NCBI GenBank assembly: GCA_021202155.1 | Contig: JAJQDP010000027.1 | Span: 1-43,452, forward strand | DNA length: 43,452 bases | DNA from: Oscillospiraceae bacterium | Lineage (GTDB): Bacteria; Bacillota; Clostridia; Oscillospirales; Ruminococcaceae | Direction of reading: 5' to 3' | Part shown: in pieces, positions 2,980 through 38,120 of the stretch | Position numbering within the stretch: position 1 is the first letter of the stretch | How the letters are laid out: every line of letters starts with the position of its first letter | Program-made: the position numbers and the translations under genes | Notes under the pieces: generated by a model | What the model was told of the DNA's origin: nothing | The model's database searches: none | The model's input: only the letters and a program-made list of their open reading frames with translations

Positions 2980-3143
2980 AACCCCTCAGTCTGCGCCTGC
3001 GGCGCATCCAGCTCCCCTTTCAGGGGAGCCTTTTTGTGCTTCTCTCAGAAGTCACATAGAGGCATTTATAGCCTCCCCTAAAATGGGGAGACAGTTCGGC
3101 TTCGCCGAACCGGGACCGCCGGCGAAGCCGGTGGTGGAGGGGT
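2980..3143. repeat. Family A palindromic element (A3) in the ftsZ leader
   Basis: Left end CCCCTCAGTC with a TGCGCC/GGCGCA hairpin, then CTCCCCT/AGGGGAG followed by CCTTTTT on the plus strand, the conserved spacer (CTTCTCTCAGAAG, GAGGCA-TTATAG), CTCCCC/GGGGAG, an inserted GGTTCGGC/GCCGAACC-type module and the GGTGGTGGAGGGGT end. It lies between the ftsZ promoter and the ftsZ start, so it should be transcribed as part of the 5' leader. Confidence 0.85.
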
Positions 3144-3153
3144 CTTCTTTAAT

Positions 3154-3182
3154 ATTGTACCACGAAAATTTCGGTTTGGCAA
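3154..3182 (-). promoter_or_regulatory. Promoter upstream of ftsZ
   Basis: TTGCCA (3177-3182), a 17-nt spacer and TACAAT (3154-3159) on the minus strand, each one mismatch from consensus. It lies between the ftsQ stop and ftsZ and would give a leader of about 220 nt containing element A3. Confidence 0.7.
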
Positions 3183-3211
3183 TAGTTTTGTGAGATTATT
3201 TCGCGATATTT

Positions 3212-4081
3212 TTATGATTCAGTCTCTTCGGAGGCTTCCTCATCCTCCGCTTCGTTTTCAGCCATGTCATTGCTCTGCTCCAATTCCTCAAGACCCTCGT
3301 CCGGAATGAACGAAACTCCGGAGGACGAGCTGATATAGATAAGCCTTCCGCTCGCGTCGGCATCAAGATTTGCCTCGATGATGGTGATAAGATACCTCAT
3401 CTTGTACTCATAGTCAAGAGAGCTTCCGAAATCGATGATGATTCTCCCGCCGTCGTAGCTCATGGTGATGTCGGTACGGTCGGTGATGTCGATATAGTCA
3501 ATCTTCCCGGGACAGATGCTGTCGATGACGTCGAAAAGATTCATTATGATGGTCTTCTTGTTGTCGTCTGACGAGGTGAACTCGTCGCCAAGAGAGACGT
3601 CGATGAGGTCGAGCCCATAGACCTGCAAAAGCTCCTCGTTCGGGTCAGCCTGCTCTGTGCTTAGGTATCTTCCCGTCCGGCTGATGACGGCATAGCGGTT
3701 GCCCTCATACTGACAGCAGGCGTACTCCTCCGACTCGGTCACCTCAATAGCAATAGTGCTGGGAAGCTCCCTTGAAACGGTGACGTCGTCGATGTAAATC
3801 AGCGTCTTCTTTATCTTCTGCTCGGTCGCCGAGAGGTCGATGCTGTAGAGATTTTCGCTGTCAGAAAGCCCTGCCGCGGCTAAAATTTCCGCATCGGAAT
3901 ATCTCTCGTTTCCGGAAATGTCGTAGCTCTCGACCTTGAAGAAAACAGTTCTTGAAAGGATATAGAGAAAGACGACAATGAATATAAATATCATAAGATA
4001 GTACAAAGACCTGTTGCCGTGGCGTCTGCGCTTTTTTCTGCGCTTCTGGCTTTGCGGGTTGGTCTTTACAACGTCCTGCAC
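3212..4081 (-). CDS. ftsQ: Cell division protein FtsQ/DivIB
   Basis: Bitopic divisome protein that links FtsB/FtsL to septal wall synthesis. It has 289 residues from a GTG start with GGAGG 8 nt upstream; a nearby ATG is out of frame. A basic cytoplasmic tail (KRRKKRRRHGNR, about 13-24) precedes one membrane segment (about 25-48), then a POTRA domain that starts at VESYDISGNERYSDAEIL, then the beta domain. The C-terminus is a Glu-rich tail of about 30 residues, as in many Firmicutes DivIB proteins. It starts 17 nt after murA, which suggests co-transcription. The family assignment is firm from position, topology and the POTRA start; the beta domain is divergent. Confidence 0.9.
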   Translation of the reverse strand: MQDVVKTNPQSQKRRKKRRRHGNRSLYYLMIFIFIVVFLYILSRTVFFKVESYDISGNERYSDAEILAAAGLSDSENLYSIDLSATEQKIKKTLIYIDDVTVSRELPSTIAIEVTESEEYACCQYEGNRYAVISRTGRYLSTEQADPNEELLQVYGLDLIDVSLGDEFTSSDDNKKTIIMNLFDVIDSICPGKIDYIDITDRTDITMSYDGGRIIIDFGSSLDYEYKMRYLITIIEANLDADASGRLIYISSSSGVSFIPDEGLEELEQSNDMAENEAEDEEASEETES

Positions 4082-4097
4082 TTTGTCATCCTCCCTT

Positions 4098-5414
4098 CTA
4101 AATTCTCCTTAGGTCCGCTCCTACTGACGAAAGAGCCGTCTCTATACTCTCGTAGCCTCTGTCTATATAGTGTACGTTTGAAATCTCTGTCTGACCCTCT
4201 GCCCCAAGAGCCGCAACGACAAGTGCCGCTCCCGCTCTTAAGTCGTGCGCCCTGACCGGTGCGCCATAGAGGGTCTTCACTCCCTCGATAACGGCGACCT
4301 TGCCCTCGGCTTTGATGTTTGCGCCCATCCGCCGTAGCTCCGGAGCCGCCATGAATCTGTTCTCAAATATGTTTTCAACAATAACGCTTGTGCCCTGGGA
4401 CTTGCTCAGAACCGCCATAACAATCGGCTGGCAGTCGGTGGGAAACCCGGGATAGGGCATCGTCCGCACCGTTCTCACCGCTGAAATCGGCTTTCTCGCG
4501 CTTATAAAAATCTTGTCGTCATAAGGGTATACCCCACAGCCCATCTCCGAGAAAACCGACATGCAGGAGTACATATCCGCCGGTCTGACGCCGGTTAACA
4601 TAAGCTCTCCGCGGGTGATAGCCGCCGCGCCCATATAGGTCGCCGCCTCAATTCTGTCCGGCATCACGGAATATTCGCACCCGTGGAGCTCGGGGACGCC
4701 GTCAATGACGAGTGTTGAAGTCCCCTGCCCGGAGATTTTCGCGCCGCATTTGATGAGATACCCCGCCAAATCGGAGATTTCCGGCTCTCTTGCGGCGTTT
4801 CTGATAACCGTCTCGCCGCTTCCAACCGCCGAATAGAGCATGATGTTCTCGGTAGCTCCCACTGACGGAAGAGAAAGAGTTATGTCCGCACTAAGCGGTC
4901 TTACACCCGCAGTGCAATCCAGGATTCCGTGACCCTCGGTTATCTTAACGCCCAGGCGTCTTAAAGCCTCTAAGTGCAAATCTATGGGTCTCGGACCGAG
5001 CTCGCACCCACCGGGAAACGACAGCCGGCATCTTCCGACCCGTCCCAGAATCGCTCCTAAGAAAACGATTGACGAGCGCATCTCGTGCATCAGCCCATCA
5101 GAAACGATGTCGCCCTCGGCGTTCGCAGAGCACACGGTAACGGTGCTCCCCTCGCGAGAAATTTCGCATCCAAGCGAGCGCAAAATTCGCATAGCGGCGA
5201 AAGCGTCGGAAAGTGAAGCGGTGTTATGTATAACACTGATCCCGGCTTCGCCGGTACGAGTGCGACTAATTCCGGCGTTGCCGGAATTAGTGTGCCTTAT
5301 ACCACAAAGTAATGTAGCCGCCAATATCGGCAAAACACTGTTTTTCGCACCGTGAACCCGAATTTCGCCTTCAATCTTCCTGCCGCCCTCAACCAAAAGC
5401 CTGCTACTCTCCAT
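4098..5414 (-). CDS. murA: UDP-N-acetylglucosamine 1-carboxyvinyltransferase (MurA)
   Basis: Transfers enolpyruvate from PEP to UDP-GlcNAc, the first committed step of peptidoglycan synthesis, in the cytosol. It has 438 residues from the ATG at 5414, with GGGAG 8 nt upstream. Conserved sites: K24 and N25 in HGAKNSVLPIL, the catalytic loop GGCELGPRPIDLH with C137 (the cysteine alkylated by fosfomycin in the family), and GFPTDCQPIVMAVL with the general-base aspartate. The reaction centre is therefore complete. Odd: residues about 39-59 form an extra segment of about 19 residues absent from the usual alignment. It is encoded by palindromic DNA (5233-5292) containing the same ACCGGC/GCCGG hairpin as family A. 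The protein is probably still functional, since the insert sits in a surface region between early secondary-structure elements (inference). Confidence 0.95.
   Translation of the reverse strand: MESSRLLVEGGRKIEGEIRVHGAKNSVLPILAATLLCGIRHTNSGNAGISRTRTGEAGISVIHNTASLSDAFAAMRILRSLGCEISREGSTVTVCSANAEGDIVSDGLMHEMRSSIVFLGAILGRVGRCRLSFPGGCELGPRPIDLHLEALRRLGVKITEGHGILDCTAGVRPLSADITLSLPSVGATENIMLYSAVGSGETVIRNAAREPEISDLAGYLIKCGAKISGQGTSTLVIDGVPELHGCEYSVMPDRIEAATYMGAAAITRGELMLTGVRPADMYSCMSVFSEMGCGVYPYDDKIFISARKPISAVRTVRTMPYPGFPTDCQPIVMAVLSKSQGTSVIVENIFENRFMAAPELRRMGANIKAEGKVAVIEGVKTLYGAPVRAHDLRAGAALVVAALGAEGQTEISNVHYIDRGYESIETALSSVGADLRRI
5233..5292. repeat. Palindromic sequence inserted in frame within murA
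   Basis: A perfect inverted repeat with 12-nt arms (ACTAATTCCGGC and GCCGGAATTAGT around a 3-nt loop) next to a second hairpin (ACCGGC, GAA, GCCGGG-type). Together they account for the extra residues of MurA. The length is compatible with an in-frame insertion of about 57-60 nt. Confidence 0.7.
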
Positions 5415-5476
5415 CTCAACCGCTCCCAAAACATGATGTTATAGAGCATAATATGTTGAGACGGGGATTTGGGTGA

Positions 5477-5720
5477 AACCCCTCCACCACCGGCTTTCAG
5501 CCGGCGGTCCCCTCCGGAAGTTCGCTTGCGAACTTCATTTCAGAGGGAGGCTATTTTCCTTCTCTCGAAGGCTCTCATAGTAGGAAGGGTTGCGAAATCA
5601 AAGCTGTGATTCTCTCAGAAGCTGCGATAGAAGCAGTCAAAGCCTCCCCCGAAGGGGGAGGGGGACCGGCGAAGCCGGTGGAGGGGTGCGCCTCCGCAGG
5701 AGGCGCGTCGCCGAAGCCGC
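5477..5720. repeat. Family A palindromic element (A4)
   Basis: Both ends are of the CCCCTCCACC type. The left half has ACCACCGGC/GCCGGCGGT and CCCTCCGGAAGTTCGC/GCGAACTTC...GAGGGAGG modules; the core runs CTTCTCTCGAAGG to GCAGTCAAAGCCTCCCCC; the right half ends GGTGGAGGGGT with an outer GCGCCTCC/GGAGGCGC hairpin. It occupies most of the 330 bp between murG and murA. Confidence 0.8.
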
Positions 5721-5753
5721 TAATTACGCATTACGCATTACGAATTACGCATT
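5721..5753 (-). repeat. Family C heptamer repeat (C2) providing the murG stop
   Basis: On the minus strand four to five tandem TAATTCG/TAATGCG units. The first TAA is the murG stop codon. Confidence 0.85.
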
Positions 5754-6878
5754 CAACACTTCCTCAATAACACTCCCCACCCTATCCGGCGTATCTTTGA
5801 TATAAAGCTTTCCCGCATTGGCTGAGAGCTCTTCAAGCCTCTTGGGATCATGAATCAGATCGCTTACCGTCTGGATGAGAAGTTCAGATGTCAGGTCTTT
5901 CTGCTCAAACATGATAGCCGCGCCGGCGTCGGCAAGGACTTTGCCGTTATAGAACTGGTGGTTCTCGGCAACTATCGGGGACGGAACCAAGATTGAACCG
6001 CAACCGACAGCCTCAATCTCCGTCAGAGCACCCGCTCCGCAACGGCTGATAATCAGGTCTGCCGCCTCCATGCAGGTGGACATGTTGTCGATGTATTCTT
6101 TTACGATGAAATTTGGATGTTCGGAGAGGTTTACTCCATTAGTCTGGAGAGAAGCCGCAAAGCTTCCCCTGCCGTTCTTGCCGTAGGAGTGAATGTGGCT
6201 GACTTTAATATCATTCTTGCAGTACCATGCAATCAGGTCTGAAACAGTCTCGTTTATCCTCCCCGCACCAAGGCTTCCGCCGGTCGAGAGAATGCAGAGC
6301 TGATCAGCCGGCAATCCGAGTGCCTTCTTAGCTTCAGCCTTGGGAAGCCTGTCCACAAACCCGTGACGTACAGGAAGACCGGTCACAACGCACTTGTCCT
6401 TCTCTTTTATGTAATCCTTTGCCCGCTCAACCGTGAGCATGACTTTATCGGCTTTCTTTGCCAAAATTTTTGTAGTAACTCCTGGGAAAGCGTTCTGCTC
6501 GTGAATGACGGTCTTGATTCCCATAGCCGCCGCCTTGTGGACAATCGGCTCGCAGGCGTAGCCGCCAGTTCCTATAACAATATCCGGCTTGAAATCGTCA
6601 ATAATTTTCTTTGCCTTGTGCCCCGATTCGATAAAATATTTGGTGGCAACGGCGTTGCGCTTCAGATTGTTGAAATTGATCTTGCGCTGGAAGCCTGCCA
6701 CTTCCATGGATACAAATCTGATGCCCTCCTGCTCGATAAGCTTTTTCTCGATTCCGTTGGGAGTCCCGACGTATAGAAACTCGGCGTCGGGATGATGCGA
6801 TTTTATTATCTCACATATGGCAATGGCGGGGTTGACGTGCCCCGCTGTTCCTCCGCCGGAAAGTATCACTTTAAGCAT
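5745..6878 (-). CDS. murG: UDP-GlcNAc:lipid I N-acetylglucosaminyltransferase (MurG)
   Basis: Converts lipid I to lipid II on the inner face of the membrane. It has 377 residues from the ATG at 6878, with GGAG 8 nt upstream; 23 upstream codons in frame are part of the ftsW end and were rejected. The N-terminal domain carries the G loop SGGGTAGHVNPAIA (7-20). The C-terminal domain carries STGGSLGAGRIN and the UDP-GlcNAc binding stretch RCGAGALTEIEAVG...PSPIVAENHQFYN. Length and domain order are normal for the family. It starts 16 nt after ftsW, so the two are probably co-transcribed. The last residues (LNA) and the TAA stop lie at the edge of a family C repeat. Confidence 0.96.
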   Translation of the reverse strand: MLKVILSGGGTAGHVNPAIAICEIIKSHHPDAEFLYVGTPNGIEKKLIEQEGIRFVSMEVAGFQRKINFNNLKRNAVATKYFIESGHKAKKIIDDFKPDIVIGTGGYACEPIVHKAAAMGIKTVIHEQNAFPGVTTKILAKKADKVMLTVERAKDYIKEKDKCVVTGLPVRHGFVDRLPKAEAKKALGLPADQLCILSTGGSLGAGRINETVSDLIAWYCKNDIKVSHIHSYGKNGRGSFAASLQTNGVNLSEHPNFIVKEYIDNMSTCMEAADLIISRCGAGALTEIEAVGCGSILVPSPIVAENHQFYNGKVLADAGAAIMFEQKDLTSELLIQTVSDLIHDPKRLEELSANAGKLYIKDTPDRVGSVIEEVLNA

Positions 6879-6894
6879 AATATTTCTCCATTCT

Positions 6895-8235
6895 CTAAAT
6901 ATTTTCGCACTGCCGTGAGACCGCCAGGACAACCCCCATCTCGACAAGCTGAATCATCAGTGCCGAACCGCCATAGCTGAAGAACGGCAGCGAAACACCG
7001 GTATTCGGGAATGCATTGCAGGCTACACCTATATTGAGTATCGCCTGAAGCCCTATGTGGAAGGTAATTCCGGCGGTAATAAGCGAGCCGAATTTGTCGG
7101 GAGCAGTTTTTGCGATTCTGAAGCCCCTGTATATGAACAAGCCAAAGAGAATTACAACAACCAATCCGCCGACATAGCCCAGTTCCTCGACGATTACGGA
7201 GATGATGAAGTCGTTCTGTGCCTCAGGAAGCCAGGCGTACTTCTGCCTCGACTCGCCGAACCCAAGACCGAACCATCCGCCCGAACCCATCGCGATAAGC
7301 GACTGCATGGTCTGCCAGTTATCATCGTCAATTGAACCGCTTTCTGTTGTGCTCATACTTTCAAGTCTGGTGGAGATATAGTCGAGTCCACCTCCACTGA
7401 GAATCGAGTAGCCCAAAAGAACCACAAGCCCTCCGACCACGACTATTCCCAACATCACCGCAATATCCTTATAGGGTACTCCAGAGAGCAGGACAACGCA
7501 CAGCCAGAGCGCGCACATTATAAGAAGTCCCGAGATGTGTCTCTGCAGAACCATGTTAACTCCGACAAGTGCCAATACGACAAGAAGCCAGAAGTATTTT
7601 TGCAGAAAGCCCTTATGCTGTCGCTTCGGGTCTTCCATAATCCTGACACAAATAAATGCAGTTACAACTATAAGAACCGGCTTCATAACCTCAGACGTCT
7701 GGAACGAAAGCGATTCGGTGATTTTGATCCAGCGACGTGCACCGGCGTTTTCCTCTCCAAAGAGTGATGTATAGCAAAGGAGTAAAAATACAACAGTAAA
7801 GCCGAACGTGACGAGCTTTGAATTACTCAGTATATGATAGTCAAATATCGAGACAAAAAACATGATAATGACGCCAATGACCGCCGCCAGTGCCTGCCTC
7901 TTGACAAAATAATATCCGTCATTGTAATTTGTGAGACCCTCTATGTAGCTCGCCGAGAATACCATAATGAGCCCGTAGACGAGCATGACGACAACGAGGA
8001 TAAAGAATATAGGGTCAACTCTACCGTCAATAACCCGGATTCCCGGCTCTCTTATCTTCCCGGCTCTCTTTGATTCTCTGCGGGCTTTTCTCTCCGACTG
8101 CTTTGAGGTCGCGTTCTTAGAACTGCCCCCTCTTGAAGCATTCCTGATCCGGGCACTGCCATTCTGAACAGTGATATTTCTTCCCGTCCCCTCAACGCCC
8201 GAGCCGATTATGTAGTTTGTTCTGTTTTCAGCCAT
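6895..8235 (-). CDS. ftsW: SEDS-family septal peptidoglycan glycosyltransferase FtsW
   Basis: Polymerises lipid II glycan strands at the septum with its partner PBP. It has 446 residues from the ATG at 8235, with GGAGG 11 nt upstream. An N-terminal cytoplasmic extension of about 70 residues, rich in Ser, Arg and Lys, precedes about ten membrane segments that start at VDPIFFILVVVMLVYG. Hallmark stretches are GSGGWFGLGFGESRQKYAWLPEAQNDFI (large extracellular loop), the VEELG sequence, and NTGVSLPFFSYGGSALM near the C-terminus. FtsW rather than RodA is favoured by its position between mraY and murG. The long basic tail is longer than in most FtsW proteins; its role is unknown. Confidence 0.94.
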   Translation of the reverse strand: MAENRTNYIIGSGVEGTGRNITVQNGSARIRNASRGGSSKNATSKQSERKARRESKRAGKIREPGIRVIDGRVDPIFFILVVVMLVYGLIMVFSASYIEGLTNYNDGYYFVKRQALAAVIGVIIMFFVSIFDYHILSNSKLVTFGFTVVFLLLCYTSLFGEENAGARRWIKITESLSFQTSEVMKPVLIVVTAFICVRIMEDPKRQHKGFLQKYFWLLVVLALVGVNMVLQRHISGLLIMCALWLCVVLLSGVPYKDIAVMLGIVVVGGLVVLLGYSILSGGGLDYISTRLESMSTTESGSIDDDNWQTMQSLIAMGSGGWFGLGFGESRQKYAWLPEAQNDFIISVIVEELGYVGGLVVVILFGLFIYRGFRIAKTAPDKFGSLITAGITFHIGLQAILNIGVACNAFPNTGVSLPFFSYGGSALMIQLVEMGVVLAVSRQCENI

Positions 8236-8280
8236 GGGCGTTATTGCCTCCAACCTTATTATTCCGCTCCACGTGGTAAA

Positions 8281-8534
8281 ACGACTTGGCTAACGCCAAG
8301 TCGGCAGTTCGCCTTTGGCGAACTGCGCGCTCCCTGCGGTCGCGCACCTCTCAGTCAGCCTGCGGCTGACAGCTCTCCTTGAAAAGGAGAGCCTTTTTTA
8401 TCCCCTCGCAGATACTTTTGAGAGAAGACTTCTGGCTCCCCTTTTTAAGGGGAGCTGTCGCGAAGCGACTGAGAGGTGCGCCGACCAAAGGGAGGCGCAT
8501 CGCCCGCAGGGCGACATTGTCGGCAGTAGCCGAC
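8281..8534. repeat. Family A palindromic element (A5)
   Basis: Outer chain of hairpins (GACTTGGC/GCCAAGTC, CAGTTCGCC/GGCGAACTG, GCGCTCC-type), then CCTCTCAGTCAGC/GCTGACAGC, CTCTCCTT/AAGGAGAG followed by CCTTTTTT on the plus strand, core, GGCTCCCCTT/AAGGGGAGC and a GCGAAGCGACTGAGAGGT end with more outer hairpins. It fills the ftsW-mraY gap. Confidence 0.85.
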
Positions 8535-8540
8535 TCCACC

Positions 8541-8572
8541 ATTGTACATAGTACAATTGTACATAGTACATT
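8541..8572. repeat. Short TGTACATAGTACA repeat (D)
   Basis: Two direct copies of the near-palindrome TTGTACATAGTACA, next to A5 and just beyond the mraY stop. Only this copy was seen in the window. Confidence 0.6.
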
Positions 8573-8577
8573 TTACA

Positions 8578-9594
8578 TTAATCCGCTGTATACAGCCACG
8601 TCGCCAGCACTCCCAGTGCGCCTGCCACGAGTGTGACCCCCGAGAACACCCAGAGAATCTTGTACTCGCTCCAGCCGCAGAGCTCAAAGTGGTGGTGAAT
8701 CGGTGCCATCTTGAAGACACGCTTCTTTCTTATCCTGATGCTCAGAATCTGGATTATGTCAGACAGCATCTCTATAACATATATAATTCCGACCAGCGGC
8801 ATAAGAAGCTCCAAGCCGCTTGCCATTCCCATTGCGACTACCGCGCCGCCTAAGAACATCGAACCGGTGTCTCCCATGAAGACCTTTGCGGGGTGCAAGT
8901 TCCAGATAAGAAAGCCTAAGCATCCTCCCGCAACAGCCATCGAAAAAGCTGACATCTCCCAGTTGTCAAGAAGAACGAATATCAGAACGAACGCGAGCGA
9001 ATACACCGTCGTGACCGAGCCCAACAGTCCGTCTACACCGTCGGTAAAGTTGACGGCGTTCACGAGCAAATAGATGCACACGCCCATCAGCGGATAGTAG
9101 AACCAGCCGAAATTGACCTCCCCAATGAACGGAAATACAACCGAGGTGGTGTTCCCGAGGAAGTAGAGTGCCACTAAATAGCCGACAACTATCACGACCT
9201 GCATGGCGGTTTTCGCCTTGATGCTTAAGCCTAAGTTTCTCTTCTTGACTACTTTGATATAGTCGTCGATGAAGCCTACGAGCATAAAGAGCATTGCCAC
9301 ACCGACAGCCAAGAGTAGCTTGAGTCCCGAGTTTTCAGGAGTCTCCATCATGTGCGCCGAGCGGTATGCCTTGATGATGAGATAGCCTATCCAGGTACAA
9401 ATCGGAACGGAGACAATAAACATAAACCCGCCCATCAAAGGAGTCCCCTCCTTCGACTTGTGCCAGGCAGGACCTATGTCAAGTATATGTGACCCCGCTT
9501 TAAGCTTGCGGAGATAAGGGATGAGAATCACCCCGAGAGCCCCGGCAATGACGGCAGATAGTATTCCGACTATAATGTTTATCCAGTATGGCAT
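8578..9594 (-). CDS. mraY: Phospho-N-acetylmuramoyl-pentapeptide-transferase (MraY)
   Basis: Integral membrane enzyme that transfers phospho-MurNAc-pentapeptide to undecaprenyl phosphate, giving lipid I. It has 338 residues and about ten membrane segments. Conserved cytoplasmic motifs are present: GPAWHKSKEGTPLMGG near residue 42, FIDDYIK with the paired aspartates (about 108), NFTDGVDGLLG (about 182) and PIHHHFELCGW near residue 300. The ATG start has AAGGA upstream. murD, which often follows mraY, is missing here; ftsW comes next, after element A5. Confidence 0.96.
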   Translation of the reverse strand: MPYWINIIVGILSAVIAGALGVILIPYLRKLKAGSHILDIGPAWHKSKEGTPLMGGFMFIVSVPICTWIGYLIIKAYRSAHMMETPENSGLKLLLAVGVAMLFMLVGFIDDYIKVVKKRNLGLSIKAKTAMQVVIVVGYLVALYFLGNTTSVVFPFIGEVNFGWFYYPLMGVCIYLLVNAVNFTDGVDGLLGSVTTVYSLAFVLIFVLLDNWEMSAFSMAVAGGCLGFLIWNLHPAKVFMGDTGSMFLGGAVVAMGMASGLELLMPLVGIIYVIEMLSDIIQILSIRIRKKRVFKMAPIHHHFELCGWSEYKILWVFSGVTLVAGALGVLATWLYTAD

Positions 9595-9631
9595 GGCTTT
9601 TCCTTCTTTTTATGCTTATTGTCGCCGCGGA

Positions 9632-9772
9632 CACCCCTCCACCACCGCCTTCGGCGGCGGTCCCCCTCCCCCTTCGGGGGAGGCTTTTTGTGCTTCTATC
9701 AGAAGCTTTTGGGAGCGGCAGCTATAGGCTCCCCTGAAAGGGGAGCTGTCAGCCGCAGGCTGACTGAGGGGT
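9632..9772. repeat. Family A palindromic element (A6) overlapping the murE 3' end
   Basis: Left CCCCTCCACCACCGCC/GGCGGCGGT, then CTCCCCC/GGGGGAG followed by GCTTTTTG on the plus strand, core TTCTATCAGAAGC to GGCAGCTATAGG, CTCCCCT/AGGGGAG, and right GTCAGCC/GGCTGAC-TGAGGGGT. The right end encodes the last residues and the stop of murE. Confidence 0.85.
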
Positions 9773-11212
9773 TTCCGCAAGTGCTTCCGCCACAACTTCC
9801 CTCTCATCAAAATGTATCTTCCCAGTCGAAAGAATCTGGTAATCCTCGTGACCCTTTCCGCAGAGGACGATGACGTCGTCCTTTTTAGCGTTTTTGATCG
9901 CCCAGAAGATGGCGTCGCGGCGGTTGTCTATTTCAATATATTCCTTGAAGCCAGACGTTAGACCGGCTATTATGTCCATGATGATGGCGTGGGGGTCTTC
10001 ATTTCGAGGGTTATCCGAGGTGACGACTAAGAAATCTGCGCCCTGCTCTGCCGCCTGAGCCATCAGCGGACGCTTTTTCGCGTCGCGGTTTCCGCCACAG
10101 CCGAACAGGCAGACGATTCTTCTGCCAGCCCCCGCGCTCTCGCGGACATTTCTTAAAATATTCGTGATCGCATCGGGAGAGTGGGCATAGTCAATGATGA
10201 CGATGAAATCTCTTCCCGTCGGGACGACCTCGCACCTGCCTCTGACGCCTTTTATATCCGGGATGAGGGGGACTGTTCTCTCAGCACCGATTCCGGCAAG
10301 CTCCAAAACAGCGATAGCCATCATGGTGTTCGAGACGTTGTAGCTCCCCGGAAGAGGAATGCTGACCTTGTAGCTCTTGAGCGCGTTCGAGTACCAATAG
10401 GTCGACTCGTGCGCGGATAGCTTTATCATGTCGGCAAAGAAATCGGCTTCCTTGCGGATGGAAAGGGTGTATTTCGGGCAATTGATTTCATTGAAAAGCC
10501 GTTCGCCGTAAGGGTCGTCTATGTCGATGACGGCGTTCTTGCTCCTCCCGAAGAGGAGCTTTTTCGCCTGGTAGTAGTTCTCCATGCTCCCGTGGACGTC
10601 AAGGTGATCCTGCGTAAGATTCAGGAATGCCGAAACCTCAAAGACGCACTTTCCCAAGCGTTCCTGTTCAAGCCCTTGTGAAGACGCCTCCATAACAGCG
10701 TACTCACAGCCGGCGTCGACCATCTCTCTTAGTAGCTCAAAGAACTCGTTCGGAAGCGGCGTTGTATTCTCGGTGGGGATGAACCGGTCGCAGATTTCGT
10801 TTCCGCAAGTGCCGATAAGCCCAGCCTTGATTCCGAGAGCGTCTAAAAGCTGTTTTATGACGGTAGTAGTCGTGGTCTTGCCGTTTGTTCCGGTGATGCC
10901 GATGAGCTTAAGCTTACGCTCGGGGTTGTGGTACCAGTTCGCCCAGAGTGAGGAAAGTGCCAGGCGAGTATCTCTCACAACTATCTGATGCGGAACGCCG
11001 CAATCATGCTCGACAACAAAGACCTGAACGCCCTTTTCGCTCAGGCTCTTGACCTCGTTGTGCGCATCAAACTTCGCCCCCTTGAGAGCGACAAAGAGCG
11101 TATTTTCAGTGATTTCATCCCTTGAGTCGGAGGAAATCTTTTCAATTTCAATGTTAGGAATATCCTCCGGAGTAACCGGGCATATGCCGGATAATAGGTC
11201 ATATAGTTTCAT
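9749..11212 (-). CDS. murE: UDP-MurNAc-L-Ala-D-Glu:meso-diaminopimelate ligase (MurE)
   Basis: Adds the third residue of the stem peptide in the cytosol, using ATP. It has 487 residues. The Mur ligase P-loop is GITGTNGKTTTTT (about 105-117); the UMT-binding and carbamylated-lysine region is around VMEASSQGLEQERL; the C-terminal domain carries SDNPRNEDP. DNPR is the established signature for meso-DAP rather than lysine, so the wall is predicted to be DAP-type. The C-terminus TPQSACG and the stop codon are encoded by the end of repeat element A6, so the native protein probably ended a few residues earlier before the element was acquired (inference). Confidence 0.95.
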   Translation of the reverse strand: MKLYDLLSGICPVTPEDIPNIEIEKISSDSRDEITENTLFVALKGAKFDAHNEVKSLSEKGVQVFVVEHDCGVPHQIVVRDTRLALSSLWANWYHNPERKLKLIGITGTNGKTTTTTVIKQLLDALGIKAGLIGTCGNEICDRFIPTENTTPLPNEFFELLREMVDAGCEYAVMEASSQGLEQERLGKCVFEVSAFLNLTQDHLDVHGSMENYYQAKKLLFGRSKNAVIDIDDPYGERLFNEINCPKYTLSIRKEADFFADMIKLSAHESTYWYSNALKSYKVSIPLPGSYNVSNTMMAIAVLELAGIGAERTVPLIPDIKGVRGRCEVVPTGRDFIVIIDYAHSPDAITNILRNVRESAGAGRRIVCLFGCGGNRDAKKRPLMAQAAEQGADFLVVTSDNPRNEDPHAIIMDIIAGLTSGFKEYIEIDNRRDAIFWAIKNAKKDDVIVLCGKGHEDYQILSTGKIHFDEREVVAEALAETPQSACG

Positions 11213-11258
11213 TTTATCACCCTTTTCAGTGATTAGTGGTTAGTTGCTATGGCTATTT

Positions 11259-11481
11259 GTCGCGCTTCGCGCGACGCGCCTCCTTTGGAGGCGCACCCCT
11301 CCACCGGCTTCGCCGGTCCCCCTCCCCCTTCGGGGGAGGCTTTAATTCGCTCGGGGATAGTTTCCGGTAGAGGATAAGATTGCAAATTAAAGTTGTGCAT
11401 AAGTCAAAAGTTGCAAAGAGGCAGTCATAGCCTCCCCTGAAAGGGGAGGGGGACCGCCGGCGAAGCCGGTGGTGGAGGGGT
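11259..11481. repeat. Family A palindromic element (A7)
   Basis: Outer GCGCC/GGCGC hairpins, CCCCTCCACCGGC/GCCGGT, CTCCCCC/GGGGGAG, an unusually long core of about 80 bp ending GAGGCAGTCATAG, CTCCCCT/AGGGGAG and ACCGCCGGC/GCCGGTGGT-GGAGGGGT. It fills the gap between the PBP gene and murE; its final T is part of the PBP stop codon TGA. Confidence 0.85.
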
Positions 11482-13715
11482 CAACCTGAGTCCTCATTAA
11501 CAACAAAGTACGCTTCAATAACCGTCCCGACCTCTACTGTCGTTCCGACGGAATAGTTGGAGGTTCCGGTGCAGACGGCTCCGCTCTTTTCAGCGGCTCC
11601 TCCGAGCGGCAGCAGGTTCAGACCTGCCTTTGTAATCAGCCTGTTTGCCTCCGAAAGCGAACAGCCGGAAATGTCGGGTACTGTCGTGTACTGGACATCA
11701 TAGTCCTCATCTGTATAGACGACAACCGTGCATCCTGTCGGCATGGTGCTTCCGCTTGCGGGCACCTGCCTTATTACTGTGTCTCCATCGCCGATGACCT
11801 CGATTTCGAGCCCGAGAGCTTCAAGAGTAGCAGTTGCCTGCGAGACAGTTGAGCCTCTTATATAAGGGACGGAAACGTCCATATCTTCCAGATCTTCTTC
11901 TGTATACTCGGCGTAATATCCCAGATATGGGAGAATTTCAGTCAGAGCCTCAACTACAACAGGAGCGGCGACGGCAGAGCCATAGTAGAGCCCGTTCGTC
12001 GGCTCATCGACCATTACGAGCATGATTATCTCCGGGTCGTCGGCAGGATAGAATGCGACGTATGACGACACATACGTAGTACCTGATGAATCCTCATCCA
12101 GCTTCTGTGATGTTCCCGACTTTCCGCCGATTGAGTAGCCCTTGATGTAGGCGTTGCTTCCCGAGTTTGTATTTACGACAGTTTCGAGCACCTCGCGCAT
12201 GGTTTCGGAGGTCTCCTCCGAGATAACCTGCCGTTTGATTGTGGTCTCGTTCTGCATGATTATATTTCCCTCACTGTCGACGACCTTATCGACGACATAG
12301 GGGGTGAGCAAATATCCGCCGTTGATGACTGCCGCATAAGCGCAGAGCATCTGAATAGGAGTTATCTTGTTTGCCTGACCGAACGAGCTCGACGCCAAGT
12401 TGACGAGGGTCATGTTGTCAGAGTCGATATAAAGGCTGTTCGGCTCCGCCGGAAGGTCGATTCCCGTCTTCTGGGTGAGACCGAAAGCCTCAAAGTATTT
12501 GCAGAATGCCGTCGCTCCCAACTTCTGTCCGATAAGGACGAACGCCGGGTTGCAGGAGTTGGTCATCGCTTCAACGAAGGTCTGGCTTCCGTGCGAGCTT
12601 GAGCTCCAGCAATGGTATATCGTGTCCATGACGGTGATAGAGCCGGAGCAGTAGAAGGTGTCGCTGAGGCTTATTGCGTTCTCCTCAAGAGCCGCCGAGC
12701 CGGTTACTACCTTGAAAACAGAGCCCGGGAAGTAGAGCGATGAGATTGCCTTGTTCGTCCACTGGGTATTCCACGCTTCAGAAAGTGCCGCGCTGTATTC
12801 TTCATCCGTAACCGTTCCGTCAAGACCGGCTAAGTATTCTGAAAGCGATTCATCGGTGATGACCGTCGGCTCGTTCAGATTATATGTCGGCGAAGAAGCC
12901 ATCGCATAGATAGCACCCGTCTTGCAGTTCATGACTATTGCACATGCGCCGTCCTCCGGGTCGTTCGCCGAGACTGCGTTCGCAAGTGCCTCTTCAACAT
13001 AATACTGAATCGTCGCGTCGATTGTCGAATATACTGAGTAGCCATCAACTGCGTCGTAGCTTTGCTTGTACTTGTACTGGATTTCCGAGCCGTTCGCGTC
13101 GATAGCAGTGACGATGGCACCGTCCGTACCGGTGAGGTAATCGTCATATGATGCTTCAATTCCGTAGATGCCGTAGCCGTCATAGTGCAGATGCCCGATG
13201 ACGTTCGCCGCAAGGTCGTCCTGCGGATAATATCTCTCGGTAGTCGCCGTCGCACCAACAGAGGTGATTCCCGCCTCGCTCATGATTGAAAGGATTGATG
13301 TAGCCGTGGTCTTGTCGACCTCGGTGGCTATTACCTGATAGGCGTTGTCCTTTGAGAGCTTTGTTTCGATTACGTCCTCGTCCACTCCGAGATACTCGGA
13401 AAGAGTTTCGACGATGAGCTCCTTCTGCTCGGTATCCCTGTCGCGATAGGTGGTCGGGTCGACGAAAACGGTGTAGACCGTAACGCTCTGCGCCAAAACC
13501 TGACCGTTGGAGTCATAGATTGTTCCTCTTGTTGAGCTGATTGTTGTCGTTTTGAACTGCTGACTGTTGGCAAGAGCCTGGTACTTTTCGCTGTCAACAA
13601 CAGCGACCTGGTACATGCTGTAGGTGACGTACACAAGGGTCGCAATCATGACCAAAAGCAATGGTGCAAACAGTCGCCGCTTCATTTTTGGAGTCGGTTT
13701 TTGAGTTTCTGCCAT
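11481..13715 (-). CDS. Class B penicillin-binding protein with two PASTA domains (FtsI/SpoVD type)
   Basis: Septal transpeptidase that cross-links peptidoglycan outside the membrane, partner of FtsW. It has 744 residues: a short basic tail, a membrane anchor (about 15-36), a PBP dimerisation domain (about 55-215), the transpeptidase domain (about 255-590) and two PASTA domains (about 613-668 and 676-738). Active-site motifs: S332-V-F-K335, S387-C-N389 and K532-S-G-T535. The third motif reads KSG where KTG is usual, a conservative change. By position after ftsL it should be the vegetative septal PBP (PBP2B-like), but PASTA-bearing SpoVD has the same architecture; only one such gene is in the cluster. 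The stop TGA abuts repeat A7. Confidence 0.93.
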   Translation of the reverse strand: MAETQKPTPKMKRRLFAPLLLVMIATLVYVTYSMYQVAVVDSEKYQALANSQQFKTTTISSTRGTIYDSNGQVLAQSVTVYTVFVDPTTYRDRDTEQKELIVETLSEYLGVDEDVIETKLSKDNAYQVIATEVDKTTATSILSIMSEAGITSVGATATTERYYPQDDLAANVIGHLHYDGYGIYGIEASYDDYLTGTDGAIVTAIDANGSEIQYKYKQSYDAVDGYSVYSTIDATIQYYVEEALANAVSANDPEDGACAIVMNCKTGAIYAMASSPTYNLNEPTVITDESLSEYLAGLDGTVTDEEYSAALSEAWNTQWTNKAISSLYFPGSVFKVVTGSAALEENAISLSDTFYCSGSITVMDTIYHCWSSSSHGSQTFVEAMTNSCNPAFVLIGQKLGATAFCKYFEAFGLTQKTGIDLPAEPNSLYIDSDNMTLVNLASSSFGQANKITPIQMLCAYAAVINGGYLLTPYVVDKVVDSEGNIIMQNETTIKRQVISEETSETMREVLETVVNTNSGSNAYIKGYSIGGKSGTSQKLDEDSSGTTYVSSYVAFYPADDPEIIMLVMVDEPTNGLYYGSAVAAPVVVEALTEILPYLGYYAEYTEEDLEDMDVSVPYIRGSTVSQATATLEALGLEIEVIGDGDTVIRQVPASGSTMPTGCTVVVYTDEDYDVQYTTVPDISGCSLSEANRLITKAGLNLLPLGGAAEKSGAVCTGTSNYSVGTTVEVGTVIEAYFVVNEDSG

Positions 13716-13769
13716 TTTGAGTCCTTTCTCCGAAAACTGTCACGGTTCGCCATTTTACCTCTGACTGAA

Positions 13770-13818
13770 GAAAGCTAAGTTTACCCTTCAATATTCAAGA
13801 AGGCAAAACTTAACTTTC
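13770..13818. other. Long hairpin between ftsL and the PBP gene
   Basis: Arms GAAAGCTAAGTTT (13770-13782) and AAACTTAACTTTC (13806-13818) pair over 13 positions with one wobble. Inside, CCTTC (13785-13789) pairs with GAAGG (13799-13803). There is no T run on either side, so it is not a standard terminator; an RNA processing or stability element within the operon is possible. Confidence 0.6.
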
Positions 13819-13855
13819 CCTCAACACTATCCACTATACTACTAATATTATTTTT

Positions 13856-14359: not shown

Positions 14360-14402
14360 GTTTTCACGTCCTTTTTCGTTCAACTCTTCTTATGCAGAGC
14401 CG

Positions 14403-14600
14403 GCTATTTTCGCCGAAGGCGAAAATAGCACCCCTCAGTCAGCTTCGCTGACAGCTCCCCTTATCAGGGGAGCCATAATTCTTTCTCCCGAAAGCCTCTG
14501 AGAGAGGCAGTTATAGCCTCCCCTGAAAGGGGAGGGGGACCGCCGCCGAAGGCGGTGGTGGAGGGGTGCGCCTCCTCAGGAGGTGCGCATCTGCCGCAGG
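14403..14600. repeat. Family A palindromic element (A8)
   Basis: Outer GCTATTTTCGCC/GGCGAAAATAGC hairpin, CCCCTCAGTCAGC/GCTGAC, CTCCCCTT-AGGGGAGCC, core TTCTTTCTCCCGAAAGC to GAGGCAGTTATAG, CTCCCCT/AGGGGAG, ACCGCC/GGCGGTGGT-GGAGGGGT and an outer GCGCCTCC/GGAGGTGCGC hairpin. It fills the rsmH-ftsL gap. Confidence 0.85.
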
Positions 14601-14618
14601 AAATGCATTTCTGCAGGT

Positions 14619-15542: not shown

Positions 15543-15560
15543 GAAACTGTCCTTCAATAA

Positions 15561-15998: not shown

Positions 15999-16010
15999 CA
16001 GATTCACCTC

Positions 16011-16049: not shown

Positions 16050-16051
16050 CA

Positions 16052-16080: not shown

Positions 16081-16138
16081 TAGGGAATTTCGAGGTATTT
16101 TCGATTTCGGGGAAATTTTTTCTGCAACGGCAACTCAT

Positions 16139-16207: not shown

Positions 16208-16217
16208 AAAATAACTA

Positions 16218-19226: not shown

Positions 19227-20138
19227 ATGACAGAAAATACACCAACCGTCCCGGATATGGACGTAATGCAGAAGGCACAGGTGCTCATTGAAGCACTGCC
19301 CTACATCCAGCGGTTCAACCGCAAAATTATCGTCGTCAAGTACGGCGGAAGCGCGATGGTCGACGAAAGCCTCAAGCACTCGGTCATCCAGGACGTCGTT
19401 CTTTTAAAGCTTGTCGGATTCAAGCCAATCATCGTCCACGGCGGAGGAAAAGAGATAAGCCGCTGGGTCGGAAAGGTCGGAATGGAGCCGCACTTTGTGA
19501 ATGGACTCCGGGTCACCGACGAACCGACAATGGAGATAGCCGAAATGGTTCTGAACCGCGTCAACAAGAGCTTAGTTCAGCTCGTCAACGAGCTCGGCGT
19601 CAAGGCGGTCGGAATCAGCGGCAAGGACGGAATGCTCCTCAAGTGCGAGAAAAAGCTCTCCGGCGGCGAGGACATCGGCTTTGTCGGAGAGGTGACGGAA
19701 GTCAACCCGAAAATAATTTACGATTTGCTCGAAAAAGACTTCCTCCCCATCATCTGCCCGATCGGCTACGACAACGACTTCTATAGCTACAATATCAACG
19801 CTGACGACGCCGCCTGCGCGATTGCAAGGGCTGTGAACGCCGAGAAATTGGCGTTCCTCACCGACGTCGAGGGCGTCTATAAAGACTTTAGCGACAAATC
19901 GACCCTCATTTCCGAGATGACCGTTTCGGAGGCTCAGAAATTTGTCGAAGAAGGAAGCTTCGGCGGCGGAATGCTCCCCAAAATGCAGAACTGCATCGAC
20001 GCCATCACACACGGCGTCAACCGGGTTCATATCCTGGACGGCAGAATCGCCCACTGCCTCCTCCTCGAAATCTTCACCAATAAAGGTATCGGAACTGCGA
20101 TTATAAGAGATGGTGGGGAGAGGTATTATAAGGGATAA
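19227..20138 (+). CDS. argB: N-acetylglutamate kinase
   Basis: Phosphorylates N-acetylglutamate, the controlled step of arginine synthesis. It has 303 residues; the start has GGAG 8 nt upstream. Motifs: VVKYGGSAM with K38, VHGGGKEIS and the ATP-site stretch [11 protein letters not shown]. The N-terminal helix ([15 protein letters not shown], about 17-31) is the extension that, in the family, forms hexamers and makes the enzyme sensitive to arginine, so feedback inhibition is predicted. The stop TAA overlaps the first bases of repeat A9. Confidence 0.97.
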
Positions 20139-20318
20139 CCTCTCAGTCAGCCTACGGCTGACAGCTCCCCTTATCAAGGGGAGCCAATAGCAACCTCTCA
20201 TAGAATGCAAAAAGGCTCCCCTTTTTAAGGGGAGCTGGCGCGCGAAGCGCGACTGAGAGGTGCCGCGACCGAAGGGAGCGGCGTCGGTGAAGGCGACGTC
20301 AGTCGCCGTAACCGACTA
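20137..20318. repeat. Family A palindromic element (A9), reversed core
   Basis: CCTCTCAGTCAGCC/GGCTGAC, CTCCCCTT-AAGGGGAGCC, core, AAAAAGGCTCCCC-TTTTT-AAGGGGAGC, GCGCGAAGCGCGACTGAGAGGT and outer hairpins. Here the GGGGAGCC-TTTTT half reads on the minus strand, the reverse of the other copies; the neighbouring genes are also in the reverse direction (plus). Confidence 0.85.
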
Positions 20319-22618: not shown

Positions 22619-22758
22619 AACCCCTCAGTCACGCTTCGCGTGACAGCTCCCCTTTCAGGGGAGCCTTTTTTCATTCTCTCACAAGCCTTTGATTAAGGCA
22701 GTCAATGCCTCCCCTGAAAGGGGAGGTGGATGCGCCGCAGGCGCAGACGGAGGGGTTT
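22619..22758. repeat. Family A palindromic element (A10) overlapping the ppk 3' end
   Basis: CCCCTCAGTCACGC/GCGTGAC, CTCCCCT/AGGGGAG followed by CCTTTTTT on the plus strand, core TTCTCTCACAAGCC to AAGGCAGTCAATG, CTCCCCT/AGGGGAG and TGCGCC/GGCGCA-GACGGAGGGGT. The right half is translated as the C-terminus of Ppk. Confidence 0.85.
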
Positions 22759-25823: not shown

Positions 25824-25904
25824 AAACCCCTCCACCGCGCTTCGCTCGGTCCCCCTCCGGAAGTTCGCTTGCGAACTTCATTTCAGAGGGAGGCTTTTGT
25901 TCGT
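25824..25904. repeat. Family A half element (A11)
   Basis: CCCCTCCACCGCGC-type end, CCCTCCGGAAGTTCGC/GCGAACTTC, GAGGGAGG-CTTTTG. The right half of the element is missing. Confidence 0.75.
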
Positions 25905-25917
25905 TCTATGTAATTTC

Positions 25918-25989
25918 TGTAGGGGCGGATATTATCCGCCCGAGCCAAAGCGTCAGCACTACAACGGGCGGATAATATCCGCCCCTACA
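25918..25989. repeat. Family B palindromic repeat (B4)
   Basis: A 72-bp copy closely similar to B3 across its inner spacer as well (both carry a CAGCACTACA/AC-GGGCGG stretch), directly following the half element A11. Confidence 0.9.
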
Positions 25990-28208: not shown

Positions 28209-28351
28209 TCGCGCCCTCTCAGTCACGCCTATGGCGTGCCAGCTCCCCCAAAGGGGGAGCCAAGTATTCGGGGAGCACTCATTCTCGGCTCTCCCTATGG
28301 GAGAGCTGTCAGCCCAACGGGCTGACTGAGAGGGCGCACCCGCAGGGTGCG
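28209..28351. repeat. Family A palindromic element (A12)
   Basis: GCGCCCTCTCAGTCACGCC/GGCGTG, CTCCCCC/GGGGGAG, a divergent core, GGCTCTCCC/GGGAGAGC, GTCAGCCC/GGGCTGAC-TGAGAGGGCGC and an outer GCACCC/GGGTGC hairpin. Core orientation is not clear in this copy. Confidence 0.8.
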
Positions 28352-36640: not shown

Positions 36641-37587
36641 AGATACTTCCTTGTGACTTCAAGAATCCGGGCGTATATTTCCCTCATCTTGCCTTCGATG
36701 GTGCAACCGGCGGCTCTTAAGTGTCCGCCACCGCCAAACTCTCCGCAGATAGCCGCGGCATCGGCATCGGTAGTTCTTAAAGAAACCTTAAAGGTGTTCT
36801 CAACCTGCTTCAGGGTATAGCCGAAACGTACTCCCTCAATCGTGAGAGGAATCTGCGCGAAAGCGTCAAGCTCACTTCTGTCAATATGGAAATCGCTGAT
36901 AGCCTGGTTAGTGATGGTCATGAAGCCAATCTGACCGTCCTCAAAGAATCGCATGTCGCTTATAAGCCTCTGCTCGGCAAGGACTCTGTTACGCGACTTG
37001 ATGTCAAACATTTTGCGGTTGATGTGCTCGAAATCGACGCCCATCTCCATAAGCTTTGCCGCCGCGATGTGTGCCGCCGGGGTGGTGTTCTGGAACTTGA
37101 AGCAACCGGTATCGGTCGCAAGACCTGTATACAGATTCGTAGCAATCGGGAGAGTTATATCCGCTCCCATATGCGTGAGGAGCTCGAAAATAATAAGGCA
37201 AGCCGCAGAGGAGGAAGCGTCAACATAGGACTTCTTTGCAAAGAACCTGTTTGAACCGTGGTGGTCAATGCAGAGGTCAATCTTGTCCGCATAGCTCTCA
37301 AGCTCGTCGCCCAGGAGGGATGTGTCGGAGATGTCGACCGAGATGACGAACTTCTCCTCGAACTCCTCCGGCTGATAGTCAAGGGTCATGAAGTCATATC
37401 TGTCCGGGAAGCCGTCAGAGTTGACGACATTTGCATGTTTGCCAAGTGATCTCAAATAGAGGCAAAGACCCATTCCCGCACCGATGCAGTCGCCGTCCGG
37501 GCTCTTGTGGGTGAGAATGGTGACGTTGTCGCACTCGCGAAGTATTTCTGCTACCTCATCGTAGCTTGTAAGCCTTATATTTTCCAT
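36637..37587 (-). CDS. nrnA: DHH-family phosphoesterase (NrnA-like)
   Basis: Degrades nanoRNAs and, in many Firmicutes, pAp or c-di-AMP products; manganese-dependent. It has 316 residues from the ATG at 37587, with GGAGG 8 nt upstream; 25 codons upstream in frame lie inside rbfA. DHH domain: HKSPDGDCIGAGMGL, FVISVDISDTS and LCIDHHGSNRFF (the DHH motif). DHHA1 domain: GGGGHLRAAGCTIEG near the C-terminus. The order rbfA-nrnA-truB is typical. Which substrate matters in this organism is not visible. Confidence 0.93.
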   Translation of the reverse strand: MENIRLTSYDEVAEILRECDNVTILTHKSPDGDCIGAGMGLCLYLRSLGKHANVVNSDGFPDRYDFMTLDYQPEEFEEKFVISVDISDTSLLGDELESYADKIDLCIDHHGSNRFFAKKSYVDASSSAACLIIFELLTHMGADITLPIATNLYTGLATDTGCFKFQNTTPAAHIAAAKLMEMGVDFEHINRKMFDIKSRNRVLAEQRLISDMRFFEDGQIGFMTITNQAISDFHIDRSELDAFAQIPLTIEGVRFGYTLKQVENTFKVSLRTTDADAAAICGEFGGGGHLRAAGCTIEGKMREIYARILEVTRKYL

Positions 37588-37588
37588 G

Positions 37589-37942
37589 TCAGTCCTCCTT
37601 GATGTCCATTTCCCGCAAAAGCCTGGAAATGTGTGCGGAATATTCGCTCGAATCGTCCGCAATAAACTTGAGCTCAGGAGCCTTTCTTATGTGGAGACTG
37701 TCGGAGATTCTGCGCTTAATCATCCCCGAAGCACTCTCCAAGCCCTTTACGGCTTCCTTGGCTTCTTCTATACCGTTTAAACTTGAAACATAAATTCTTG
37801 CACTTGACCGGTCTCTTGTGACCTCGCATCTTACAACAGTGAGCATTCTGTCTTTGATTCTGGGATCTTTCAGCTCCCCAAGCATAGTGCTCACTATCCT
37901 CTGCAGATCAGACGAAAACCGCTCGGATTTGTGGTCGGGCAT
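37589..37942 (-). CDS. rbfA: Ribosome-binding factor A
   Basis: Binds the 30S subunit during late maturation of 16S rRNA. It has 117 residues from the ATG at 37942, with AGGAGGT 5 nt upstream; the longer frame upstream runs through element A13. Conserved MPDHKSERFSSDLQRIVSTMLGELKDPRI, VTRDRSSARIYVS and the C-terminal PELKFIADDSSEYSAHISRLL with the KH-like fold. One base separates its stop from the nrnA start. Confidence 0.95.
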   Translation of the reverse strand: MPDHKSERFSSDLQRIVSTMLGELKDPRIKDRMLTVVRCEVTRDRSSARIYVSSLNGIEEAKEAVKGLESASGMIKRRISDSLHIRKAPELKFIADDSSEYSAHISRLLREMDIKED

Positions 37943-37954
37943 TTTGTACCTCCT

Positions 37955-38120
37955 AAACCCCTCAGTCAGCCACTTCGTGGCTACCAGCTCCACTTTCAGG
38001 GGAGCCTATTTATATTCTCTCGAAAGCCTTGCGTGAGGCAGTTATAGCCTCCCTCTGAAATGAAGTTCGCAAGCGAACTTCCGAGGGGGACCGCCGCCGA
38101 AGGCGGTGGTGGAGGGGTTA
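37955..38120. repeat. Family A palindromic element (A13) at the infB stop
   Basis: CCCCTCAGTCAGCCAC/GTGGCTAC, CTCCACTT-AGGGGAGCC, core TTCTCTCGAAAGCC to GAGGCAGTTATAG, CCTCCCTC...GAAGTTCGC/GCGAACTTC...GAGGG and ACCGCC/GGCGGTGGT-GGAGGGGTT. Its right end provides the last bases of the infB stop codon TAA. Confidence 0.85.

Follow-up and report, generated by a model that had tools for sequence, protein, structure and literature searches.

What is the chain of small hairpins that recurs between the genes of an Oscillospiraceae bacterium, and why does its asymmetric core so often point against the genes around it? We examined this question from a 43,452-nucleotide stretch (contig JAJQDP010000027.1; hereafter, the window), which is one of the 54 contigs of a 2.25 Mb draft genome. 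The nearest named relatives of this genome are metagenome-assembled genomes (MAGs) labelled Oscillospiraceae bacterium or Ruminococcus sp. We conclude that the repeat is probably a non-autonomous mobile element, akin to miniature inverted-repeat transposable elements (MITEs) and to dimers of repetitive extragenic palindromic (REP) sequences, whose sense-terminating copies have been purged from operons. The window holds fourteen copies, complete or partial, almost all in intergenic gaps, which agrees with a preliminary description of the contig that counted about 14 copies, nearly all between genes; the hairpin modules it listed are there as well. It treated them as a single family. The repeat is real, but the copies comprise at least two subfamilies, the A-type that is our main subject and a B-type with CTCTC ends and a different core (1484, 8346, 20138, 28212 and 43359).

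A-type elements typically follow one plan. From one end to the other, a copy consists of AAACCCCTC, hairpin 1 and hairpin 2 (CTCCCC-loop-GGGGAG), then a core of some 40 nt, then a second hairpin 2 and hairpin 1 and lastly GAGGGGTTT, with two hairpins at each end and a 9 bp terminal closing stem formed by AAACCCCTC/GAGGGGTTT. The end profile is (GG)AAACCCCTC followed by AGTC or CACC, and the core is a hairpin followed by a T run on one strand. MITEs are generally short, end in inverted repeats and lack a gene; the A-type unit is likewise short, bounded by terminal inverted repeats and devoid of an open reading frame (ORF). Folding three copies on both strands (six folds) gave z-scores of -5.4 to -7.9 against shuffles, about equally strong on the two strands, and in some folds the hairpin-2 units pair with one another rather than each alone.

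The repeat is present in high copy number, and its presence follows relatedness. A covariance model of the core and hairpin 2, built from 15 copies, matches the genome 152 times, counting both strands. The window and the fetched stretches of the same genome hold 116 non-overlapping matches at E ≤ 1e-5, a figure in which some elements count twice and weak matches to the related B type are included. With up to three mismatches, the core pattern occurs 57 + 56 times (113), against 8 + 7 (15) for a reversed-pattern control; an exact 13-mer of the core occurs 12 + 13 times, against 0 + 0. Among 31 genomes of the genus, including this one, 11 have at least 47–79 matches each and 20 have 0–2; about 78 candidates were scored per genome, and the high counts are lower bounds. 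It is therefore hardly conceivable that the family is an artefact, a set of G+C-rich hairpins picked by a seed-biased model: palindromic arms do make many copies match on both strands, as such an artefact would, but the control falls far short of the true pattern and the same model leaves 20 genomes nearly empty. The 11 repeat-rich genomes are exactly those with MurG identity of at least 91%, the other 20 standing at 58–75% (one a fragment). We had considered a patchy, all-or-none distribution and dropped it, as presence tracks relatedness measured by MurG identities rather than by a tree.

The two ends of the element are different. For this and the orientation analysis we used 187 copies of at least 50 bits from nine genomes, assigned to 137 sites according to the genes on both sides, with genes called by our own hexamer script. 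Below 50 bits fell 46 of the 116 matches of the window's genome, and these were left out of the counts; other genomes contributed matches at E ≤ 1e-12 only, in stretches drawn from the 150 best places of eight genomes (G009 and G030 were excluded and G006 gave one place). Unit length is fixed, with a median of 136 bp from CCCC to GGGG (5–95% range 127–156), and the element is extragenic, lying within a called gene at 1 of 137 sites, although some ORFs do extend into an end. Two inverted end types, P and Q, are unlike at 104 of the 112 sites where both could be typed, the other 25 of the 137 having an arm that could not be assigned to P or Q. Viewed along the core, the pairs are Q-P at 67 sites, P-Q at 37, P-P at 6 and Q-Q at 2, where our own arithmetic from the margins predicts about 52 like pairs; a stricter parse finds unlike ends at 90 of 92. 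Some of the six P-P sites may carry a third end type (CCCCTCCGTC) taken for P. Unlike ends prevent both arms from pairing into one long palindrome, which may be a reason for their persistence.

Copies of the repeat come and go between conserved genes. Across relatives the flanking genes are conserved while the contents of the gaps vary. Measured between tblastn ends, mraW and ftsL are 238 nt apart here against 12 nt in L060, L064, L066 and L067, and murF and mraY 157 nt apart here against 12–13 nt in L061, L062, L064 and L065. The ftsZ-leader site (element 2979..3143) is occupied in L059 and L172 and empty in L065 and L066. In the stretches examined, a shorter orthologous site exists for 33 of the 187 elements, some such sites holding a different repeat; insertion polymorphism of this kind is as in MITEs. 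One A element (L117:4801) is nested within the loop of a B-type hairpin. Single-ended half elements in the pbp-murF gap of L065 and L067, the mraW-ftsL gap of L063 and the mraY-ftsW gap of L066 are probably deletion remnants. At one orthologous promoter-proximal site (L113:3240, L197:2493 and L170:2530) different species have Q-P or P-Q order, by in-place inversion or by repeated insertion at the same spot. A further gene pair (L171:2574 versus L190) apparently overlaps at ATGA in one species and is separated by an element in the other, where the downstream gene has a GGAAAGGAG stretch resembling a ribosome-binding site.

The core points against its neighbouring genes more often than with them. 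Of the 137 sites, 94 lie between co-directional genes, 17 between convergent and 12 between divergent ones, 13 at the edge of a contig or stretch and one within a gene. Cores at co-directional sites run antisense to the genes in 64 cases and sense in 30 (p = 6e-4). An earlier grouping by flanking DNA (102 groups, 48:23) had probably linked adjacent elements into chains and gave way to the grouping by flanking genes. By gap length the antisense:sense counts are 13:2 at up to 150 nt, 13:3 at 151–200, 12:6 at 201–250, 5:3 at 251–300, 9:9 at 301–400 and 12:7 above 400 nt. Gaps up to 250 nt thus give 38:11 (p = 1.4e-4) and longer ones 26:19 (p = 0.37), the two classes differing by Fisher's test at p = 0.048; the median gap is 227.5 nt around antisense (A) and 302.5 nt around sense (S) copies (one-sided p = 0.012). 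Requiring a strand margin of at least 10 bits leaves 57:30 (p = 0.005), and 53:30 (p = 0.015) with the window excluded. The window's genome alone gives 45:26 for all matches (p = 0.03) and 29:12 for those of at least 60 bits (p = 0.01). Counted without grouping, copies in tight gaps number 18:3 in this genome, 13:4 in G024 and 13:7 in G027, and copies in wide gaps 13:11 in this genome and 3:4 in G024. The preliminary description had the core always opposing the host operon. That holds for seven window copies (2979, 5478, 9633, 11295, 14430, 22619 and 37955), which score best on the plus strand amid minus-strand genes; beyond the window it fails. Orientation is biased, not invariant, and the bias is strongest in operon-like gaps.

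One strand of the core resembles an intrinsic terminator. T tails were readable at 121 of the 137 sites, and a run of at least four T follows the hairpin on the core strand at 78 of these and on the other strand at 20, which supports the terminator-like polarity proposed in the preliminary description; the 8-nt tail holds a mean of 5.4 T on the core strand and 3.8 on the other. The core strand thus has the G+C stem followed by a T run that marks an intrinsic terminator. Sense-facing tails carry such a run in 5 of 29 cases where the gap is at most 200 nt, and antisense-facing tails in 19 of 29; at 201–300 nt both have it in 8 of 25, and above 300 nt the counts are 11 of 30 for sense and 8 of 30 for antisense. 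Within window positions 1–20000 five elements have hairpin-2 stems that are called terminator-like, each of them on the plus strand; an example of the polar feature is hairpin 2 with its T run (CCTCCCCCTTCGGGGGAGG CTTTTTG; 9665..9689, plus strand), which would be directed against mraY/murF. A terminator scan of the same region found 28 sites in all, against 21.2 (standard deviation 4.5) in shuffles. Promoter-like matches lie downstream at 19 of 30 S sites and 19 of 64 A sites (p = 0.003), a comparison confounded by the longer S regions, and few of the matches beat shuffles (7 and 12).

The element also tends to abut stop codons. In tight gaps it begins 0–6 nt past the stop of the upstream gene at 27 of 48 sites, where about 17 would be expected, and in wide gaps at 8 of 42, where the expectation is about 1.3; among 16 convergent gaps, 7 have it starting that close to one or both of the stops. 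TAAACCCC forms the junction at 21 of 44 stop-proximal junctions.

These observations suggest how the orientation bias could arise. The inverted ends P and Q, with their terminal stem, would delimit a non-autonomous element of about 136 bp that an enzyme moves, or once moved, into intergenic gaps, often against a stop codon. The core hairpin and its T run would form a putative terminator side on one strand. Within operons, a copy with its terminator-like side turned so as to stop host transcription would then be lost by purifying selection, leaving the antisense orientation there, while wide gaps would tolerate either.

Several results weigh against this account. No consistent target-site duplication appears across 21 compared sites: two have an overlap of 16–17 nt, one an overlap of 7 nt and 15 a deficit of 1–93 nt, and the remaining three have large overlaps taken for misalignments; the relatives are too diverged for a firm reading. 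Nor did a search of four transposase-related families yield a mobilising enzyme, for the occurrence of PF01797, PF01609, PF00078 and PF07282 does not sort the genomes into the 11 rich and the 20 poor. Y1_Tnp (the REP-associated tyrosine transposase, RAYT; PF01797) has no match in the window's genome and among the rich genomes only a weak one in G006; DDE_Tnp_1 is found in the window's genome alone among the 11, RVT_1 in 4 of 11, and the TnpB family in 2 of 11, below cut-off. No transposase was seen between repeat ends in the stretches examined. Seven end pairs 330–5000 bp apart had raised the prospect of one inside the unit, and they enclose seven gene calls; the five scanned are housekeeping genes, and the two weakest were left unscanned. 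With no mobilising enzyme found in these families and no consistent target-site duplication, transposition is inferred, as are the moving enzyme and actual termination in cells. The orientation data have weak points too: with the window excluded the tight/wide contrast has p = 0.11, clear copies of the window's genome outside the window stand at 22:14 (p = 0.24), and in G027 wide gaps are biased as well (14:4, ungrouped), so the contrast does not hold there. Finally, the P end faces the upstream gene 55:22 overall, 24:14 in tight gaps and 31:8 in wide ones. This bias of arm polarity goes with core orientation, and a pure terminator model does not predict it.

Other explanations of the bias fit parts of these data. 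The preliminary description saw an RNA element of selected orientation, perhaps an antisense terminator that operons keep since stopping antisense transcription helps the host. The antisense-facing T runs in 19 of 29 short gaps agree with this, as do the terminator-like hairpin-2 calls of five dcw-region elements, all on the antisense strand; against it, the bias lacks significance where gaps exceed 250 nt, close relatives lack the element in the same gaps, and one other element stem is called on the sense strand. The antisense bias in tight gaps is real, but because wide gaps show no significant bias, copies come and go, elements abut stop codons and one copy is nested, a dedicated antisense-terminator function does not follow, and we consider it unlikely. 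The same four features point to a mobile REP/MITE-type repeat under purifying selection against sense-directed terminators. A similarly low probability attaches to insertion chemistry, in which directional insertion next to stop codons, not later selection, would set the orientation: the stereotyped TAAACCCC junction and the arm polarity bias, greatest in wide gaps, speak for it, whereas the core bias is greater in narrow gaps and 4 of the 29 co-directional sites with several copies show both orientations, in some cases by a small strand margin.

The hairpins might instead act in the sense transcript, shaping operon mRNA through RNase cleavage or 3'-end protection, with polarity explaining core and arm bias alike. 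The strong folds, the P end facing the upstream gene and the stop-codon abutment are consistent with such a role, for which ERIC and Correia elements are precedents (PMC10969869). Yet the tight-gap core bias (38:11) exceeds the arm bias (24:14) and both strands fold about equally strongly, and we regard an mRNA-processing or stability element as rather more doubtful than either antisense termination or insertion chemistry. The mobile repeat with purged sense copies remains our preferred reading.

Stems vary between copies while staying paired within them. Pairing within a copy is 0.92 for P and 0.90 for Q, against 0.73 and 0.78 when halves are swapped between copies, so the preliminary description was right that stems differ yet remain complementary; 117 P arms hold 51 distinct stems and 107 Q arms hold 31. 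At orthologous sites with cores at least 80% identical, a script scored 45 arm comparisons as 31 identical, 5 with 1–2 base differences and 9 replaced; with less similar cores, 6 stems were identical, 3 had 1–2 base differences and 27 were replaced. Reading the nine script-called replacements by eye left about six clear whole-stem replacements. One at window 9666/L172 proved to be a one-base loop change, another (L193/L187) five differences including one compensating pair, and L188 versus L194 and L188 versus L229 were one event counted twice. L177 and L204 share an identical core and differ in the P stem. Compensating changes, which the preliminary description had proposed as a check, do occur, with two clear two-base cases among orthologous arms, and whole-stem replacement stands beside them. 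Because the comparisons are non-independent and in some cases the same gap may have been entered more than once, stem exchange is only a lead. It would be central to a further idea, that unlike ends, stems exchangeable as whole cassettes and two biased polarities make the mobile repeat a one-way transcription insulator spread by transposition in the species group. This we think improbable, and slightly more so after the stem recount than before it.

The A-type element resembles REP dimers, bacterial interspersed mosaic elements (BIMEs) and REPINs without sharing their defining features. In PMC3733652, REPs carry GTAG or CGTC tags, lie near the 3' ends of ORFs and supply stop codons from their termini. 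The likeness lies in many copies, an extragenic position, palindromes paired in inverted order, a location near where the upstream ORF ends, and stop codons at the termini. Heterodimers, comparable to the unlike P and Q ends, are favoured in most GTAG and CGTC families, for which the paper sees no obvious explanation, and CGTC REPs likewise have no dedicated transposase; the words Firmicutes and Clostridi- are absent from its main text. The A-type element differs in having two hairpins per end, a 9-bp closing stem, stems variable in length and sequence, no GTAG tag by the palindrome and no RAYT match in its own genome. CGTC REPs, as described in PMC3733652, have an unpaired CGTC (TGTC/CCTC) tag, an 8–9 bp stem beginning with A/T pairs and a CCA tail, whereas here AGTC/CACC is often paired and stem length varies. 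Because these defining features are missing, the element is not a confirmed member of the RAYT-REP or CGTC-REP families; it is a REP-dimer/MITE-like family limited to close species.

MITEs and the pneumococcal repeats offer further parallels. With MITEs such as Correia/NEMIS, ERIC and RUP (reviewed in PMC10969869), it shares short length, terminal inverted repeats, lack of a gene, extragenic position, strong folds and nested insertions; it differs in that its ends are not one sequence and no parent insertion sequence was found among the four transposase-related families. On pneumococcal repeats, PMC3049150 describes BOX as modular, SPRITE as similar to a Rho-independent terminator, and BOX, RUP and SPRITE as inserting into each other, all of which resemble A-type features by description. 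The same paper has these repeats, SPRITE above all, favouring sites outside upstream regions and the gaps between co-transcribed genes; the A-type element, unlike them, is common within operon-like gaps.

Related arms reach beyond the close species. A search across 295 genomes in the order, in which some 16 candidates per genome were scored, found a match at E ≤ 1e-4 in 14, the window's genome among them; the matches in the other genomes are weak (best 53.9 bits). Of nine loci from other genomes in the order, L242–L245 and L249 have related CCCCTC-hairpin-CTCCCC arms with different cores (L249 in one half only), L250 has hairpin 2 only, L246 and L247 have nothing similar, and L248 is outside this tally. 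L091, from a Ruminococcus MAG, has such arms too. In these six repeats (L242, L243, L244, L245, L249, L091) the arms are as in the A-type, five have an inverted counterpart, and L244 and L091 have unlike ends; they differ in their other, mostly shorter cores, scoring about 30–54 bits with at least 1–11 matches per genome. Because related arms with other cores occur in other genomes, there is a wider group of such repeats; within it, one set of close species is rich in the A family. The core pattern gave 12 matches in viral contigs, and none of the 12, inspected in context, has hairpin arms. Rfam gave no match at gathering score in the window or in four element-rich stretches; 12 window matches at a permissive threshold, to miRNA and other models, were all below gathering score and judged chance. 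In the open PMC literature, no description of the A-family repeat, including its literal end CCCCTCAGTC, was found among the matches listed.

Within the window, the minus strand carries the dcw operon from mraZ to ftsZ and the plus strand arginine (arg) genes, and nearly all copies occupy gaps of the dcw operon, of the arg genes and of later minus-strand genes. All A-type copies match on the plus strand. The element at 2979..3143 sits in the ftsZ leader directly downstream of a TTGCCA-17-TACAAT promoter-like site. Others lie at 5478..5687 (murG/murA gap; long core and an additional hairpin), 9633..9773 (mraY/murF gap; Q left, P right), 11295..11481 (gap between murF and a PBP gene; long core, the right half alone matched by the model), 14430..14567 (between an ftsL-like gene and mraW), 22619..22757 (between an EamA-family gene and a polyphosphate kinase gene) and 37955..38119 (P left, Q right). 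A truncated A-type element at 37..81 (+) retains the right hairpin 2 and a Q end and is cut by adapter-like sequence. A half element at 25825..25895 (+) has a Q end and a hairpin 2 holding an inserted hairpin, and adjoins a C-type repeat.

The B-type copies are mostly without assigned strand. The one at 1484..1667, enlarged and with CTCTCAGTC ends, lies between a sigma-factor-like gene and ftsZ and contains a minus-strand (sense) terminator-like stem at 1607–1630. The copy at 8346..8477, in the ftsW/mraY gap, has a plus-strand hairpin at 8372–8392 followed by a T run. The element at 20138..20261, in the plus-strand arg operon, is on the minus strand and is probably what the preliminary description called the one reversed copy. 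A copy at 28212..28336 is almost symmetric, and a truncated one at 43359..43400 keeps a P end and is cut by adapter-like sequence.

Sequence resembling an adapter (common AAGTGTACGCGNATGCC) occupies both window ends, 1–36 and 43401–43452. Its 17-base core occurs 38 times in the genome, 17 times within 55 bases of a contig start and 14 times within 37 bases of a contig end, the remaining 7 being on contigs whose length was not seen. It adjoins a repeat hairpin at the five ends read (the two window ends, L034, L041 and L045). Both edges of the window are probably non-genomic. Another palindromic repeat (TGTAGGGGCGGATA-TATCCGCCC...GGGCGGATAATATCCGCCCCTACA) occurs at 139–211, 16134–16205, 21520–21591 and 25918–25989, and palindromic repeats of this kind also vary in presence among the dcw gaps of relatives. 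Short runs of AATTACGCATTACG-like units fill gaps at 1759–1804, 5721–5766, 17368–17418, 17871–17962 and 42509–42666; relatives have TGTACATTGTACATT runs at similar places.

Repeats of the REP-dimer/MITE kind thus extend to a group of Oscillospiraceae MAGs, where they are found even in essential operons, dcw among them. Two questions raised for REPs in PMC3733652, why heterodimers are favoured and what moves REPs that have no transposase, are touched by the strong preference for unlike ends and by the stem replacements. Through its gap-dependent orientation, the element also lets one ask, as in a natural experiment, how far operons tolerate sense termination.

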